Assembly (NCBI GenBank): GCA_010094025.1
Contig: ML991788.1
Location: 186,001 to 250,000 of the forward strand
Length of the DNA: 64,000 bases
From: Viridothelium virens
Taxonomy: Eukaryota > Ascomycota > Dothideomycetes > Trypetheliales > Trypetheliaceae
Direction of reading: 5' to 3'
The notes below the pieces were generated by a model that had not been told where the DNA came from, did not search any database, and saw nothing but the letters and a program-made list of their open reading frames with translations. Numbering within the stretch: the first letter of the stretch is position 1; each line of letters starts with the position of its first letter. Shown piece by piece: positions 34,976-64,000 of the stretch. The translations under genes and the position numbers were made by a program.

Positions 34976-36811
34976 TCATAGAATCTCCAGAACTCTCTGA
35001 TTTCCACACTTCTCCGCGATATCCTTCGCAGTCATACCCTTTTTTGTTCCACCCTTGACTTTCAAATCCTTGTTAATTTTTTCATCGACAAGGTACTTCG
35101 CTACGTCGACACTGTCCCCATTAGCCGCTTCATGTAGCGCGCTCCATTTATTATGGCCAGACACCTGATTAATGTCCGCGCCTTGTTCCTTTAATATCCT
35201 TACGATCTTTACGTTGCACGCTTTCGCAGCGTCGAGAAAAGCCGTGCGCTTCTTCTTGTCACGGATGTCTAGATTGGCGCCTTTGTCACAGAGAGTTTTG
35301 ACAATAGCGGTTTTGGACTTGAGGGTAGCTTCGTGGAGGGGGGTGCGCCCTTCTGAGGTCTGCATATTAATGTCGATGTCGGGAAAGGCAAGGAGTGCCC
35401 TTAGGCATTTCAGATGTCCCCTTGCGACACATATATGAACAGCGCTCCATTTACGGTTGCCCGTGACTTGGTTGATGTCTGCCCCGTGCTCTTGAAGAAT
35501 CTTGACAAGCTCGACATTGCCTACCTCCGCGGCGTCGAGGAATGCAGTATGCTTCTTTTTGTCTCTTTCGTCTACCTTCACCTTTCTGCCTACTAAATAT
35601 CTTACCACCGACACCTTCTTCTTGAGTGTAGCGAGGTGCAGTGCAGTCTGACCTTCAGAATCTTGCGCATCGAGCTCGACGTTACGGACGGTACAGAGGA
35701 CTTTGACACCCCGAAGACGGCCTGCTTCAGCGGCAAGATGAAGCGCTGTGCGGCCATTTTTGTCAGTTATGTTCAAGCTTGCGCCTTTTTTAAGTAATGT
35801 TCTCACAACATCCACGCGGTCTTTCTGCGCCGCAAGATGCAGCGCTGTCCGCCCATCTCGGTTCTTTGAATCTTTTTCTATACCATTAACATCAAGCAAG
35901 ATGTTGCAGCACTTCAAATGTCCACCCGCGGCCGCCAGACTCAACGCCGTCCACTGTCGTGAATCTTTGGCATTGGGATCGAATGAGTTTCTCTCGATGA
36001 ATTCCGCAACGCGGCTTTCAATCCCATTGGCGGCATTCTGATGCAATAAATTACGTCCTTTTCGCGAGTACGGTGATGGTTGTGCAGATGGGTCTGATTT
36101 GTAGTGATAGATACAATCGAGGTTGAGAATGCATTCGCGTTCTGCATCTTCTAGACCTTTCTTTTCGGCCCCCCAATCTGTCTGACCAAGAAGGTTGTCG
36201 AACCAACGCCGGAGGGGCGACTTGAGCTTGTATACGAGTTTGGCGATCGCAGATAGTAGTTTGAAGTAGATATCTAAGTAGCTAAATTGTAGTTGCTGCC
36301 GTAGCTCTGTTAGCTTCTCTGTCTCGGACGGAGATTCACTGTAAATTTGGCCATCCTCTACTACCCTACGGCAGATGATTTGGCCAATGCGTATCGTGCA
36401 GTCGAACATGGCTTTCGACTCGCTGATATAGTTCTGCTGGATCGAAAATGCCATGAAGAGGCCAGACACTGCAATTGCGGCCGGTGGGCTGGCAGCTGCA
36501 CCAGTGGAAACAAATTCCTTCGTCTTGAGTACTGCCTGCACAATCTTCTCGGACGTGCCATTCTCTGGTTTAATAGTCTGAGCTTTTGTATTGATCAGCT
36601 CGAGCAACTTCTGACGACCCTTTGTAGAGCCAAGGTGACCTATGGAGTTGCCGGTCTCCCCCAGCTCCTCTTGCACAGCTTTCTGGAACTTGATCAGAAT
36701 TTTTTTGCCATCCGGATCGCTCTGCATCTTTTTATAGGCGGATTGCCAGAGGTCATCTTTGTGACGGCGCTTTTGGCTGCTATTTGTGCTCTGCGATATG
36801 ACTGAGGACAT
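34976..36811 (-). CDS. NACHT_N-ankyrin protein without NTPase
   Basis: Single-exon frame of 611 residues. Residues about 20-240 resemble the N-terminal domain of NWD-type NACHT proteins (NACHT_N): LWQSAYKKM, VLKTKEFVSTGAAASPPAAI, QLQFSYLDIYFKLLSAIAKL and a Trp-rich region (RRWFDNLLGQTDW). Residues about 255-605 are a run of roughly ten ankyrin repeats, several near-canonical (DGRTALHLAAQKDRVDVVR, NGRTALHLAAEAG, EGRTPLHEATLKSKTAIVK); the pair with KKHTAFLDAAEVGNVELVK and KKRTAFLDAAKACNVKIVR shows recent internal duplication. No Walker A or B motif is present, so the usual NACHT between effector and repeats is missing. It is probably a recognition or cell-death related protein; function not proven. 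The frame is intact with no sign of decay. Confidence 0.8.
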   Translation of the reverse strand: MSSVISQSTNSSQKRRHKDDLWQSAYKKMQSDPDGKKILIKFQKAVQEELGETGNSIGHLGSTKGRQKLLELINTKAQTIKPENGTSEKIVQAVLKTKEFVSTGAAASPPAAIAVSGLFMAFSIQQNYISESKAMFDCTIRIGQIICRRVVEDGQIYSESPSETEKLTELRQQLQFSYLDIYFKLLSAIAKLVYKLKSPLRRWFDNLLGQTDWGAEKKGLEDAERECILNLDCIYHYKSDPSAQPSPYSRKGRNLLHQNAANGIESRVAEFIERNSFDPNAKDSRQWTALSLAAAGGHLKCCNILLDVNGIEKDSKNRDGRTALHLAAQKDRVDVVRTLLKKGASLNITDKNGRTALHLAAEAGRLRGVKVLCTVRNVELDAQDSEGQTALHLATLKKKVSVVRYLVGRKVKVDERDKKKHTAFLDAAEVGNVELVKILQEHGADINQVTGNRKWSAVHICVARGHLKCLRALLAFPDIDINMQTSEGRTPLHEATLKSKTAIVKTLCDKGANLDIRDKKKRTAFLDAAKACNVKIVRILKEQGADINQVSGHNKWSALHEAANGDSVDVAKYLVDEKINKDLKVKGGTKKGMTAKDIAEKCGNQRVLEIL

Positions 36812-57652: not shown

Positions 57653-59047
57653 ATGGTAGCAAATCCGGCGAAACCGGAGGTTCTCATAACCTGCCTTCCT
57701 GGCTATGGTCATGTGGAGAAGATGCGCGCAATAGCTGCTGGCCTCATTGAGAGAGGTTATCCTGTCACATTCATTACTGCCTCTGTCTATCGCAAAGGCA
57801 TAGAATCTACAGGTGCTCATTTTGTCCCTCTGAAATCCGGCGCCGACTTGGACATGGACCGGCTTGATGAAACACATCCTGAGTTTTGGAACATGCCCCA
57901 GGGGAAAGAGAGACATGAGTATGCGTTTAAGACATTTGTAATAGGACCTGTGGAGGACTCTCATTTGACCGTACAGGAACAGCTTACAAGATATAAAGAT
58001 CAAAGCAAGAATCACATTATAATACTACAAGATACTGGATTCTTAGGTAATGCCCCTATCCTACTCGGAGCCCCCGGATTACGCGTCCCTGTAATTGGCA
58101 TCGGCACTGCGAGACTTGCAATGAAGAGCATCGATACGCCGCCCTTCAATTCTGGCCTACCCCCGGACTCCTCTGACGAAGGTCGCAAGCGCAACATCGC
58201 CCTTCAGCAAGAAGTCGAAGCGAACTTCGCCAATCTTCAATCCGGTTACGAAAACATCCTCCGCTCCCTTGGAGTATCGTCTTCGACCCGAATCCCCTTC
58301 TACATGGATAGCCAAGTCGTCCTCGCCGACCGCTTCCTCCAAATGAGCATCCCCTCTATCGAATATCCTCGTAGCGATCTCCCCCCAAGCATCCGCTTTG
58401 TCGGTGCCCTCCCGACCACCGGCGGCCGCAAATTCGGCAGCAGCAACTCCCTCGGCACCGTCTCCGAAGCCAGTCAGCTTCCCCCCTGGTGGCCTGAAGT
58501 AATTGCACACACCCGACCTCTTGTCGTTGTCTCTCAGGGCTCCAAATCCACAAACCCGGAAGAGCTCATTTTGCCTACGCTGCGTGCCCTTGCGGACCTC
58601 GATGTTCTTATTGTCGCCACTCTTGTGACAGTCAAAGCGTTGCCAGAGGACTTTGAGGTCCCGCGAAATGTGCGCACTGCAAGCTTTGTGCCCTTTCACG
58701 AGCTCTTTAAGCATACAGACATTGCGATCACGAATGGTGGCTATGGTGCTGTGCAGCAGGCGCTGTATCTGGGGGTTCCGATGATCTTGGCGGGAGAGGG
58801 GAAGGATCACACGGCGACGAACGCGAGGGTCGCCTGGAGCGGAGCGGCGATTAATCTGGGAGAGGAGTTTCCGAAACCGGAGAAGGTCGAGAGGGCGGTG
58901 CTGGACATTCTAGCGGAGGGAAGTACGTATAGGAAAAGGGCGGCTGAGTTGGCGGAGGAATATAGGAGGATGGGGGATCCTTTGGACAAAATTGCGGAGG
59001 CGGTTGAAGAGCTGAGGACCACCGATATGAGATGGAAAGGTCAGTGA
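57653..59047 (+). CDS. GT1-family UDP-glycosyltransferase (MGT-like)
   Basis: Intronless, 464 residues from ATG 57653. The N-terminus VLITCLPGYGHVEKMRAIAAG is the acceptor-side Rossmann start with the Gly-His of GT-B enzymes. The donor side shows VVVSQGSKSTNPEELI, ASFVPFHELFKHTDIAITNG and GGYGAVQQALYLGVPMI followed by EGKDHTATNARVAW, the macrolide-glycosyltransferase-like form of the plant/bacterial PSPG region; the usual HGG is NGG here and DQ is DH, as seen in fungal members. It likely transfers glucose or a similar sugar from UDP to a small molecule, in detoxification or secondary metabolism. Codon use in the 3' half is richer in GC than the 5' half. Convergent with the P450 gene (265 bp). 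Confidence 0.88.
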   Translation: MVANPAKPEVLITCLPGYGHVEKMRAIAAGLIERGYPVTFITASVYRKGIESTGAHFVPLKSGADLDMDRLDETHPEFWNMPQGKERHEYAFKTFVIGPVEDSHLTVQEQLTRYKDQSKNHIIILQDTGFLGNAPILLGAPGLRVPVIGIGTARLAMKSIDTPPFNSGLPPDSSDEGRKRNIALQQEVEANFANLQSGYENILRSLGVSSSTRIPFYMDSQVVLADRFLQMSIPSIEYPRSDLPPSIRFVGALPTTGGRKFGSSNSLGTVSEASQLPPWWPEVIAHTRPLVVVSQGSKSTNPEELILPTLRALADLDVLIVATLVTVKALPEDFEVPRNVRTASFVPFHELFKHTDIAITNGGYGAVQQALYLGVPMILAGEGKDHTATNARVAWSGAAINLGEEFPKPEKVERAVLDILAEGSTYRKRAAELAEEYRRMGDPLDKIAEAVEELRTTDMRWKGQ

Positions 59048-59311: not shown

Positions 59312-61956
59312 CTACAGCACAGGCGCCTCTTCAACAATGAGATTCCCTTTTATCTTGGCCACGTCTTGCTTGGTCATATCACAGTATCTCTCAATATACG
59401 CCTCCGCTCCCCCAAACCGCTCATCCAACACTCGAAGACAAGCACGCATATCTTCCTCCTTCGCACTCAACATCCTCTCAATCTCCTCCCTCTTCGCCAC
59501 CCCCTTCTTCCCCATCGCCGCCAACTTCTCCACCATCTGCTGCTTCCACTCCCCCAACCCCACCTCCGTCAACGCAAACTCCCTCGCCACAACCTCATCC
59601 CCCACCCCCGCCAACTTCAACAACAACGCCACCAAAACCCCCGTCCGATCCTTCCCAATCGCACAATGACACAGAAATGGCTCCTCCGCCCTATCCCTCA
59701 CATGCCTCAACACCACCCCGAACGCCTCCCCGCCATGCTCCAAAATCCGCGCATACGCCTGCGCAAACGCCTCCGACCCATCCCCCCTGGCGACCTCCGC
59801 ATACTTCTCCGCATGCCGCTCAGGACTGTAGTTCTCGTCGCGGTACAACGGCACAGCGAAGTTCGCGACCCCCGGGATGTCGGCGACAGCCTGCACGCCC
59901 GGATACTTCTGCCGGATCTCCTCGATCTCGGCGGGCGAGCGCAGGTCGTAGCGCGTGGTGAGGCCGAGCGCCTGGAGCTGCGCGATACCCGCCGGCGTGA
60001 TACGGCCGGGGTGGGCGGAGCGGAAGATGAAGTTGCGACGGACGGAGGTGGTGGTGGTGGTGGGGTGGGTGGCGAGGGGGTAGCCGCCGATGTCGCGGAA
60101 GTTGGGGACGCCGGGGATGAGGAGGAAGGGGGGGGAGGGGAGAGGTGGCGGGGTGGTGGTGGTGCGGGCTTCGAAGGGGGAGCCTGGGGTTGCGGCTGCG
60201 AGGGTCTCGCGGGATGTTGGGGTTGGCTCGGTGGGTCGGTGAGTGATGGTGATGTTTCCGTCGCGGCGGAGGATTTTGACGGGGACGGAGAAGCGCTTGG
60301 GGGCTTCGACGGCCTCGAATTGGAATTGGCCCATGAGCGATGCTACGACTTTGAAGAGCTCGAGGTGCGTGAAGCTCTTCCCGATGCATGCTCTGGAGCC
60401 TTGACTGAATGTTAGGTCCACACGATCCATTGCTGCCCTCCGCTCGTAGAACGCTTCCTCGCTTTCGCCCTTGGCACGCATCCAGCGTTCGGGATTGTAT
60501 TCGCCGGGATTGGCACCATAGACAGGGTTCAAGCGCATGCTAGGACTCGATATTGCGGCATCCATATGTCCAGGTAGATGCCTGCCATCAGGTAGATCTA
60601 AACCCTCATCGGGCACGCGTCTTTCAATTGCGATGTCGCTCCCGTGGTGCAGCCTGTAACTTTCCTTGATCACGCCCTCCAGGAAAGGCATCTCCATCGT
60701 CGCAGATAACGGTACAGGAAAGTCGCATCCTGTGCTACGAACTTCCTCATACAGCCGATCTTGAGCCCAGGGATTTTGCACGAGCCATGTGCAGATCAGA
60801 TCCAGGACTCGAGAGGGGCTGAGCGAACCCGCGAGCGTGTTTGTGCTGCAGTACAGTCTGACTTGTGTATCATCGACGATGTCTGGATATCTTTCTTTGG
60901 CATAGAGGAAATGCGACAAAAGTGTCCTTTGGGTAGCATCTTCAGACTCGGGATTTGCTAGCTGATCTTTTATCTTGGATTTCGCAAACACAAAGAAAGG
61001 AGACTCCTTGTGCGTTTTGAACGCAAGATAAAGAGGATTCTTCTTGAGAACGTAGTCAAGCTTGGGAAACTGCGTGACCTTAAGAATGTCAGCAGACACT
61101 AGTCAGATCCTGAGCAGCCTGCAATCCAGGCATAACAGACCCACAAACTTACAATTCTGACATATGCAACGTGCCGAGCCTGGTTCTCGATTAAGTTGTA
61201 CATGTCCCTGCCGTTCTCGAGAAAGCCGATAGGATGACCAAATGTGACTCGCATGATTGTATCGTAGGCGACTGTGCCTCGTGCCTGCATTAGCTTTTAC
61301 AAACCGGCACGCCTAATCTTCATAAGCTAGACTTACAGTAATGACACCATGAGCTGATATTCAAGATGCTCTGCCTCTGCGCAGATTTCTCAAGAATGTC
61401 GGCAAGCTTGTTAATCATCTCATCCACCGCAGGCTCGTATGCCTTGAGACTTGACAGGCTATACGCGCCTTGGATAGGCCTGCGGTACGCCGCATGCTTT
61501 TGTTCATTACTTTCATGGGTCAGCCAGGAACTTCGAGAATGAGGAGAAACTTCGATACCGAATGCCAACGAGAGAGGTGTGTATTCCTGGAACACTGAAA
61601 GGTATGATGGAATCAGACTTCTCCAGCCTCTGTTTAAATCCGAGAACTCGCGGGATGGCCTCAGCATCGTTGATGAATACTGTACGAGGTCCTACTCTGA
61701 CTACATTGCCATAGCGATTATGAAGAACCTCATGATAGGTGATACCGTTTGGTCGAGTAGCATACTGCCAAGCTTGCCATGCTCGCCAAGCATTCGTGTA
61801 TCGTGCGATGATCGGACCAGGAATTCCCCACAGATCACGATTTTGGATTTCATGAAAGACGACGAAAGCGAAGAGTGAAATGACGCAGAAATATCCCACC
61901 AAATTGACCTTACTCGTTTGCTCAAAGAGAGACTTCAGAACGTCGGACAGAGCCAT
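59312..61956 (-). CDS. Cytochrome P450 fused to tyrosine phosphatase
   Basis: Four exons (61956-61559, 61509-61337, 61271-61153, 61078-59312); introns 49, 65 and 74 nt; 818 residues with exact frame. Residues 10-40 hold the ER membrane anchor, then LWGIPGP. P450 features: a helix I region AGSLSPS (313-319) in place of the usual A/G-Gly-x-Asp/Glu-Thr-Thr, KESYR (ExxR, 369-372), NPERW (425-429) and the heme loop FSQGSRACIG with Cys461. A Thr/Pro-rich linker (about 511-550) leads without stop or intron into a Tyr/Ser phosphatase domain (Y_phosphatase3 type): GVPNFRDIGGY at about 553 and the Cx5R loop HCAIGKDRTGV with Cys702 and Arg708. Both catalytic sites look intact apart from helix I. The fusion is unusual; a sequencing or assembly artefact is unlikely because one exon covers both domains. 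Confidence 0.85.
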
Positions 61957-62999: not shown

Positions 63000-64000
63000 A
63001 TGCCTTTCACTCTGGGTGATCTACTGTTGCTGGCCGACAAGACCATCCTCAACCCCTGGCTCTCTGGGCCAATTCTCGCAGGACTGAGACTACTCGATGT
63101 TTGCATACAGCGTTCAATCGTCACATCTGATGCCTCCATCTTCTTGCCATCGCCCGGACTAGGAAAGGCCTTAACATGGCTCTTCGGAATCGGCGTCACC
63201 CTCCGCGCAAACCGAACCCTCAGTCGAAGAGCCCTTAACAACGGCACCACCGCCCACTTCGACTGGAACAAAGAGATCATCCTCATCACCGGCGGCGCAG
63301 GCGGCATCGGCGGCGAAACCGCGCGCCTCCTCGCCACGCGCGGGTCCCCCATCATCGTCCTCGACGTCCTCCCCCTCAGCTACGACCCCCCTCCAAACCT
63401 GCACTACTACCAAGTCGACCTCACCGACCACGTTGCTCTCGAGAGCACCGCGGCACGCATCCGCAAAGACATCGGCGACCCGAGCATCATCGTCGCGAAC
63501 GCGGGGATCTGCCGGGGCAAAGCGCTGCTGGACGCGTCGCCGCGCGACATCTCGCTGACGTTCGGAGTCAACACGCTCGGGCTGATCTGGACCGCGAAGA
63601 CGTTCCTGCCATCCCTCGCCCAGCGCAACCACGGCCACTTCCTCGTCGTCTCTTCTCAAACCGCGCACTCCGCGACTGCGCGCTTGGTCGACTACTCGGC
63701 GTCGAAGGCGGCGGCGCTCGCGGTCTACGAGGGCTTGCACTCCGAGCTGAAGCACGTGTACAACGCGCCGAAGGTGCGGGTCTCGTGCGTCGCGCCGTGT
63801 GTGGTGGATACGGAGATGTTTCGTGGGATTAAGGCGCCTTCGAATTTTTTGGTGCCGAGACTGCGGCCGAGGGAGGTGGCGGATTTGATCGCGGAGACGC
63901 TGTGGATGGGGGAGAGTAGGAATCTCATGGTGCCGGCGTTTGCGTATATCAGTCCGCCGACGAGAGCACTGCCGGAGTGGTGGAGGGTTGCGTTGGCGGA
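63000..64000 (+). CDS. Short-chain dehydrogenase/reductase (partial)
   Basis: The frame opens at ATG 63000 (MPFTLGDLLLLADKTI) and runs off the right edge, so at least 333 residues. An N-terminal hydrophobic region precedes the Rossmann fold, as in membrane-bound retinol-dehydrogenase/DHRS-like SDRs. The cofactor loop is ILITGGAGGIGGETA, VLDVLP ends strand 2, IIVANAGI is the NAG motif, and VVSSQTAHSAT... DYSASKAAA carries the catalytic Ser and Tyr-xxx-Lys. VAPCVVDTEMF is the usual nicotinamide-side Pro region. It likely oxidises or reduces a lipid-like or polycyclic alcohol/ketone. The coding part is very GC-rich. Divergent from the P450 gene; fits a shared pathway. Confidence 0.9.
   Translation, partial: MPFTLGDLLLLADKTILNPWLSGPILAGLRLLDVCIQRSIVTSDASIFLPSPGLGKALTWLFGIGVTLRANRTLSRRALNNGTTAHFDWNKEIILITGGAGGIGGETARLLATRGSPIIVLDVLPLSYDPPPNLHYYQVDLTDHVALESTAARIRKDIGDPSIIVANAGICRGKALLDASPRDISLTFGVNTLGLIWTAKTFLPSLAQRNHGHFLVVSSQTAHSATARLVDYSASKAAALAVYEGLHSELKHVYNAPKVRVSCVAPCVVDTEMFRGIKAPSNFLVPRLRPREVADLIAETLWMGESRNLMVPAFAYISPPTRALPEWWRVALA

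Follow-up and report, generated by a model that had tools for sequence, protein, structure and literature searches.

A predicted cytochrome P450-phosphatase fusion of lichen fungi and its proposed role in a labdane-type diterpene cluster

A gene encoding a cytochrome P450 with a phosphatase domain at its C-terminus was identified in Viridothelium virens, a lichen fungus (Dothideomycetes, Trypetheliales, Trypetheliaceae) with a genome of 30.7 Mb. The gene lies at positions 59312 to 61956 of the 64,000-nucleotide stretch of DNA analyzed here (hereinafter referred to as the window), which belongs to a contig of 430,946 bases (C18). Judged by sequence, the P450-phosphatase fusion protein looks real and is well supported. 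A homologue of PvCPS-type bifunctional diterpene diphosphate synthases lies roughly 9 kb away from it, and we propose, with a probability of about 0.62, that the C-terminal PF13350 tail of the P450 hydrolyzes a labdane diphosphate in a labdane-type diterpene cluster. The sequences themselves show the fusion and its occurrence in five database proteins, the intactness of the heme and phosphatase motifs, the motifs of the cyclase homologue, and the kinship of the P450 with P450-methyltransferase proteins.

Structure and authenticity of the fusion gene

The coding sequence, join(61956..61559, 61509..61337, 61271..61153, 61078..59312) on the minus strand, comprises four exons and encodes 818 amino acids. 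In the splice model, all three introns (61558-61510, 61336-61272, and 61152-61079) are of the GT-AG type. The following features were assigned:

61559..61956, minus strand: exon 1, with the start codon, a hydrophobic N-terminal helix, and the start of the P450 (match to the deposited V. virens protein P0002 from residue 1; splice model)
61337..61509, minus strand: exon 2, P450 (match to P0002; GT-AG introns)
61153..61271, minus strand: exon 3, P450 (match to P0002; GT-AG intron)
59312..61078, minus strand: exon 4, with the remaining P450 (I-helix AGSLSP, ExxR, heme loop), linker, Y_phosphatase3 domain, and stop (PF00067, PF13350, motifs, splice model)
60380..60409, minus strand: heme-binding loop FSQGSRACIG (motif; position from the splice model)
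60131..60253, minus strand: Thr/Pro-rich linker, about residues 506-546 (splice model, comparison with relatives)
59336..60118, minus strand: PF13350 phosphatase domain (Pfam match)
59639..59668, minus strand: phosphatase active-site loop HCAIGKDRTG (motif)

The open reading frame (ORF) at 59312-61099 on the minus strand scored 106 bits against PF00067 and 198 bits against PF13350, for which the Pfam cut-offs are 22.8 and 22.2 bits, respectively. In addition to exceeding this hidden Markov model cut-off, the Y_phosphatase3 (PF13350) domain contained HCX5R with GKDRTG, and its nearest solved folds were PtpB and a protein tyrosine phosphatase of C. difficile. Assignment of the other half to cytochrome P450 (PF00067) was supported by the heme-Cys loop FSQGSRACIG and by KESYR (ExxR), both present in 5/5 fusions. 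The first-pass annotation of this DNA had described a P450 heme loop and a CX5R phosphatase site in one exon, joined by a Thr/Pro-rich linker; this was borne out for exon 4, and the N-terminus of the P450 was located in the three other exons.

In the full-length AlphaFold2 (AF2) model of a relative, P0004, the P450 was poorly predicted (mean predicted local distance difference test score 68.5, predicted template modeling score 0.44), and the model was used only for the phosphatase domain, which was confident, a helix at residues 16-38, and the counterpart of the linker (506-540), which was predicted to be disordered. Between the P450 part and the phosphatase part, the GC content at third codon positions rose from 0.56 to 0.81. 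This step was set aside as proof of a join, since the rise occurs already within the end of the P450 and the neighboring short-chain dehydrogenase/reductase (SDR) gene has a value of 0.80.

The coding part of exon 4 spans 589 codons including the stop. Its frame was open for 588 codons, compared with longest runs of 266 codons in 300 base shuffles and 315 codons in 300 first-order Markov versions. A chance open frame or an annotation artefact was rejected for the window on the basis of these randomized exons and the four further fusions described below. No intron was needed at the linker in the window sequence. The in-frame Met codons flanking the junction were located at 60334, within the P450, and at 59536, beyond the CX5R site, which leaves no start codon at the linker for a phosphatase of its own. 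No Met was present in the linker of the relatives' proteins, and P0005 had a Met within the phosphatase domain, upstream of the active site. Separate genes with a start codon at the linker, named in the first-pass annotation as an outcome that would speak against a fusion, were not encountered, and every close relative found carries the fusion.

P0002 was identical to the window translation over residues 1-717. Its residues 718-720, which follow the CX5R site, fit a 37-nucleotide "intron" (about 59615-59579) for which one fitting acceptor was found. Because the four other fusions continue to a common C-terminus further on, without this "intron", the early end of P0002 is probably an annotation error.

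Relatives of the two halves

Five database proteins contained both domains in the same order, and these were the top five of 22 matches in the protein search:

P0002, Viridothelium virens
P0001, Trypethelium subeluteriae
P0003, Bogoriella megaspora
P0004, Bathelium mastoideum
P0005

Four of the five originated from four genera, all belonging to Trypetheliaceae, which suggests that the fusion is conserved across this one lichen family. All five are predicted proteins, and P0001, P0003, and P0004 are labeled as coming from metagenome-assembled genomes. Two of the protein searches scored the 7994 and 7998 candidates with the most shared words; one of these and a third search covered only proteins of at least 0.55 x 595 amino acids, excluding shorter standalone phosphatases. 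Identity of the four relatives to the window was 91-98% in the exon 4 P450 part, 46-83% in the linker, and 65-88% in the phosphatase; over the entire P450, P0004 was 88% identical to the window. Among the relatives, conservation was much higher in the P450 part of exon 4 (61078-59312) than in the phosphatase.

In a tree of 65 rows, the fused phosphatase domains grouped in a single long-stemmed clade (100/99), and no standalone sister was resolved. P0002, which merely duplicates the row of the window in truncated form, was omitted from the tree, and a paralogue on contig C9 was dropped at the length filter. Long branches meet in this tree, and its deeper order is not trustworthy. Standalone PF13350 relatives had the same HCxxGKDRTG type of signature. 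The V. virens genome contained five PF13350 matches at three loci, among which the fused one alone was near the cluster. An origin of the fused domain from the genome's own standalone phosphatase was considered and found unsupported, as the paralogue at 412 kb of C18 grouped with other rows, although its branch was long and weakly supported.

Apart from the fusions, the nearest P450 relatives found were P0006 (Talaromyces atroroseus) and P0009 (T. marneffei), which were 61-67% identical to the fusion P450 in the stretches covered by their models, up to the P450 end. The next two relatives, from Cladophialophora, showed 30% identity. Both P0006 and P0009 run on into a methyltransferase; the Pfam match of this domain reaches the cut-off in P0006 and falls just short of it in P0009. 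Put most simply, related P450s in related clusters would bear different C-terminal enzymes. In the V. virens genome, 28 matches to Methyltransf_23 were found, none of them on C18 (28/82 candidates scored).

The I-helix of classical P450s has the consensus AG-x-D/E-T-T. In the five fusions and P0006 it reads AGSLSP, in which Leu replaces the acid and Ser replaces the first Thr; the model of P0009 is without this stretch. The acidic residue of the classical oxygen-activating P450 was therefore not present in the fusions. The acid was also absent in P0023 and P0024 (AGSGTV), distant plain P450s from Cladophialophora. The heme Cys was kept in all five fusions and in P0009. In P0006, the heme loop reads FSQGSRAFIG, where Phe replaces the heme-binding Cys, which may be a sequencing error. 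The P450 half may catalyze an unusual reaction or act in part as a platform.

Gene neighborhood and proposed function

The following genes were found around the fusion gene:

57626..59047, plus strand: glycosyltransferase with an EryCIII-like C-terminal domain, probable cluster member (Pfam; NCBIfam matches below cut-offs only)
55197..57086, minus strand: major facilitator superfamily (MFS) transporter, possible cluster member (Pfam)
63000..64000, plus strand: SDR (PF00106) reaching the window edge, probable cluster member (Pfam)
Contig C18:256724-259810 (L014:6724-9810), past the window edge: PvCPS-type bifunctional diterpene diphosphate synthase homologue
Contig C18:263096-264100 (L015:3096-4100): Exo_endo_phos (DNase-I-like) gene, about 3 kb beyond the cyclase (Pfam)
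Window 45721-47637: gene with a HET (heterokaryon incompatibility) domain, about 8 kb past the transporter

Further away, the translation of an ORF at window positions 34976-36811 resembled an ankyrin-repeat protein. Beyond the window edge, nine ORFs from L014 and L015 were run against Pfam, and the ORFs of L016 were listed only.

Two long ORFs of the cyclase homologue had copalyl diphosphate synthases as their best solved matches (8v0f, E 6.5e-99; 9q3i, E 3e-159). The homologue carries both the class II DxDD motif (DADD) and the prenyltransferase DDxxD motif (DDIED), and its class II part had no second match in the V. virens genome. Two P450s, with the I-helices AGHETT and AGSETT, were located on the SDR/cyclase side of the fusion gene. 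Class I terpene synthases gave eight matches in the genome, of which the sole one on C18 was about 96 kb away; as no such synthase is close by, removal of the diphosphate would have to occur by hydrolysis. Matches to other phosphatase families, namely HAD_2 (8), PAP2 (5), and Hydrolase (16; 16/29 candidates scored), were present in the genome but none on C18. The fused phosphatase was thus the sole candidate found in the cluster for diphosphate removal among the families searched.

A comparable set of genes is known as the labd cluster of Talaromyces sp. HDN151403, which was expressed in A. nidulans. According to the available part of its description, LabdA is a PvCPS homologue, LabdB a phosphatase, LabdC a dual-domain P450-methyltransferase, LabdD an aldehyde dehydrogenase, LabdE and LabdF P450s, and LabdG an SDR (PMC10744899). 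That source names the phosphatase and the bifunctional synthase as the pair of genes conserved in clusters of this type and proposes that LabdB or an endogenous A. nidulans phosphatase acts on copalyl diphosphate (PMC10744899). P0006 and P0009 are presumably orthologues of LabdC.

By analogy, the genes of the V. virens cluster would act jointly. The PvCPS homologue would make geranylgeranyl diphosphate (GGPP) and then cyclize it to a labdane (copalyl-type) diphosphate, from which the fused phosphatase would strip the diphosphate, the role proposed for LabdB in Talaromyces. Tethering to a membrane-bound P450, presumably at the endoplasmic reticulum (ER), would free the greasy alcohol beside the oxidases, and the SDR and glycosyltransferase would finish the product. 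The first-pass annotation had offered two functions, removal of phosphate from a pathway intermediate and control of protein tyrosine phosphorylation near the ER. The former is now favored because a PvCPS-type cyclase lies nearby and the labd cluster has a separate phosphatase; the latter appears less likely, and the only support found for it was the naming of proteins with related folds. The cyclase lies outside the window on which that annotation rested, and the P450-methyltransferase relatives were likewise not visible to its reader.

Several points weigh against this proposal. The literature searched (titles and abstract starts) yielded no PF13350 enzyme with a terpene diphosphate as its substrate, and the top structural matches carry the name of protein tyrosine phosphatases. 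PMC10744899, in its available text, does not name the family of LabdB and allows that the endogenous A. nidulans phosphatase may carry out the step. Linkage of the cyclase to the fusion gene was seen in one genome, and the cyclase product may be other than copalyl diphosphate. No counterpart of LabdD was found on C18, although 14 Aldedh matches were present in the genome (11/41 candidates scored). The Exo_endo_phos gene is a weak candidate for an alternative phosphatase.

That proteins or phosphoinositides close to the ER are instead the substrates of the phosphatase, which would regulate the pathway or the membrane with the P450 as its anchor or partner, is unlikely. PtpB and the C. difficile enzyme were deposited as protein tyrosine phosphatases and the HCxxGKDRTG-type signature is common to standalone relatives, which speaks for this alternative, but the fusion adjoins a PvCPS-type cyclase, no other phosphatase is near among the families searched, and a pathway phosphatase was proposed for the labd cluster in the accessible text (PMC10744899). 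The separate long-stemmed clade of the fused domains would also fit a changed role. Doubtful as well is a pathway role on another substrate, either the monophosphate left after the first cut of a general phosphatase or a later phosphorylated intermediate. In the parts of the reports available, two enzymes split the two cuts in astellolide biosynthesis (PMC5024094) and AacA halts at the monophosphate (PMC13244436), but no second phosphatase was found near the fusion gene among the families searched.

A further, improbable view is that LabdC-type P450s are membrane docking platforms with exchangeable tails, a phosphatase in lichens and a methyltransferase in Talaromyces, and with non-classical or dispensable chemistry of their own; the P450 would keep the labdane diphosphate in place for the tail to alter. 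It is suggested by the missing I-helix acid in the six sequences covering it, the Phe of P0006, and, among the fusions, the conservation of the exon 4 part of the P450 above that of the phosphatase. The heme Cys of the five fusions and the equal absence of the acid in the plain P450s P0023 and P0024 count against it. Finally, it is very improbable that the halves are separate products arising through read-through annotation, alternative transcript ends, or linker proteolysis. In favor of this view, the 3' end of P0002 deviates, the linker is disordered in the P0004 model and fast-evolving, the phosphatase has a Pro-rich start like that of standalone phosphatases, and linker introns are possible in the relatives, for which proteins alone were compared, but the window has neither an in-frame stop nor a Met at the linker and the deposited models of all five proteins run from P450 to phosphatase.

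Comparison with known systems

In comparison with PtpB, the C. difficile protein tyrosine phosphatase, and fungal standalone PF13350 proteins, the V. virens domain sits behind a P450 and forms its own clade. No P450-phosphatase fusion was described in the literature searched (by exact phrases, and more broadly by title and abstract start), a partial coverage that leaves novelty unproven; an exact-phrase search for P450-methyltransferase fusions likewise gave none. Natural multi-domain P450s include P450foxy and Ppo, which have reductase or peroxidase/dioxygenase partners. In P450foxy, Ppo, and, as far as the accessible text goes, CYP5619, the partner is of one of these kinds, whereas in V. virens it is a phosphatase.

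HAD-like terpene cyclases, namely AstC, AacA, AncC, and drimenol synthases, have a HAD-type phosphatase domain, inactive in AstC, fused to the cyclase itself, and AacA stops at the monophosphate, according to the available part of the source (PMC13244436). They resemble the V. virens protein in that a phosphatase domain is tethered to a terpene pathway enzyme, but the V. virens tail is a cysteine phosphatase (PF13350) on a P450, not a HAD domain on a cyclase. In astellolide biosynthesis, AstI and AstK are reported in the accessible text to remove the diphosphate in two steps (PMC5024094). If our proposal is correct, the V. virens P450 would be covalently joined to the very phosphatase from which it receives its substrate, whereas other class II terpene pathways, those of astellolide and labd, assign the two steps to separate enzymes. 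The tail would also be a candidate enzyme for dephosphorylation in fungal labdanes, from a family without a link to terpene diphosphates in the literature searched.

The closest likeness is to labd-type clusters, with which the V. virens locus shares a bifunctional class II cyclase and GGPP synthase, further P450s, and an SDR. Its cyclase is a homologue of PvCPS and PfCPS, bifunctional copalyl diphosphate synthases, with class II DxDD and prenyltransferase DDxxD motifs. Unlike the labd cluster, the V. virens locus adds a glycosyltransferase and a transporter, and its phosphatase is a domain of the P450, whereas LabdB is encoded by a separate gene; with 11/41 candidates scored, no aldehyde dehydrogenase was found on C18. 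The P450 half is close to that of LabdC, as judged through P0006 and P0009, but its tail is PF13350 here and a methyltransferase in LabdC, and the two may represent an example of related clusters exchanging the tail of one P450.
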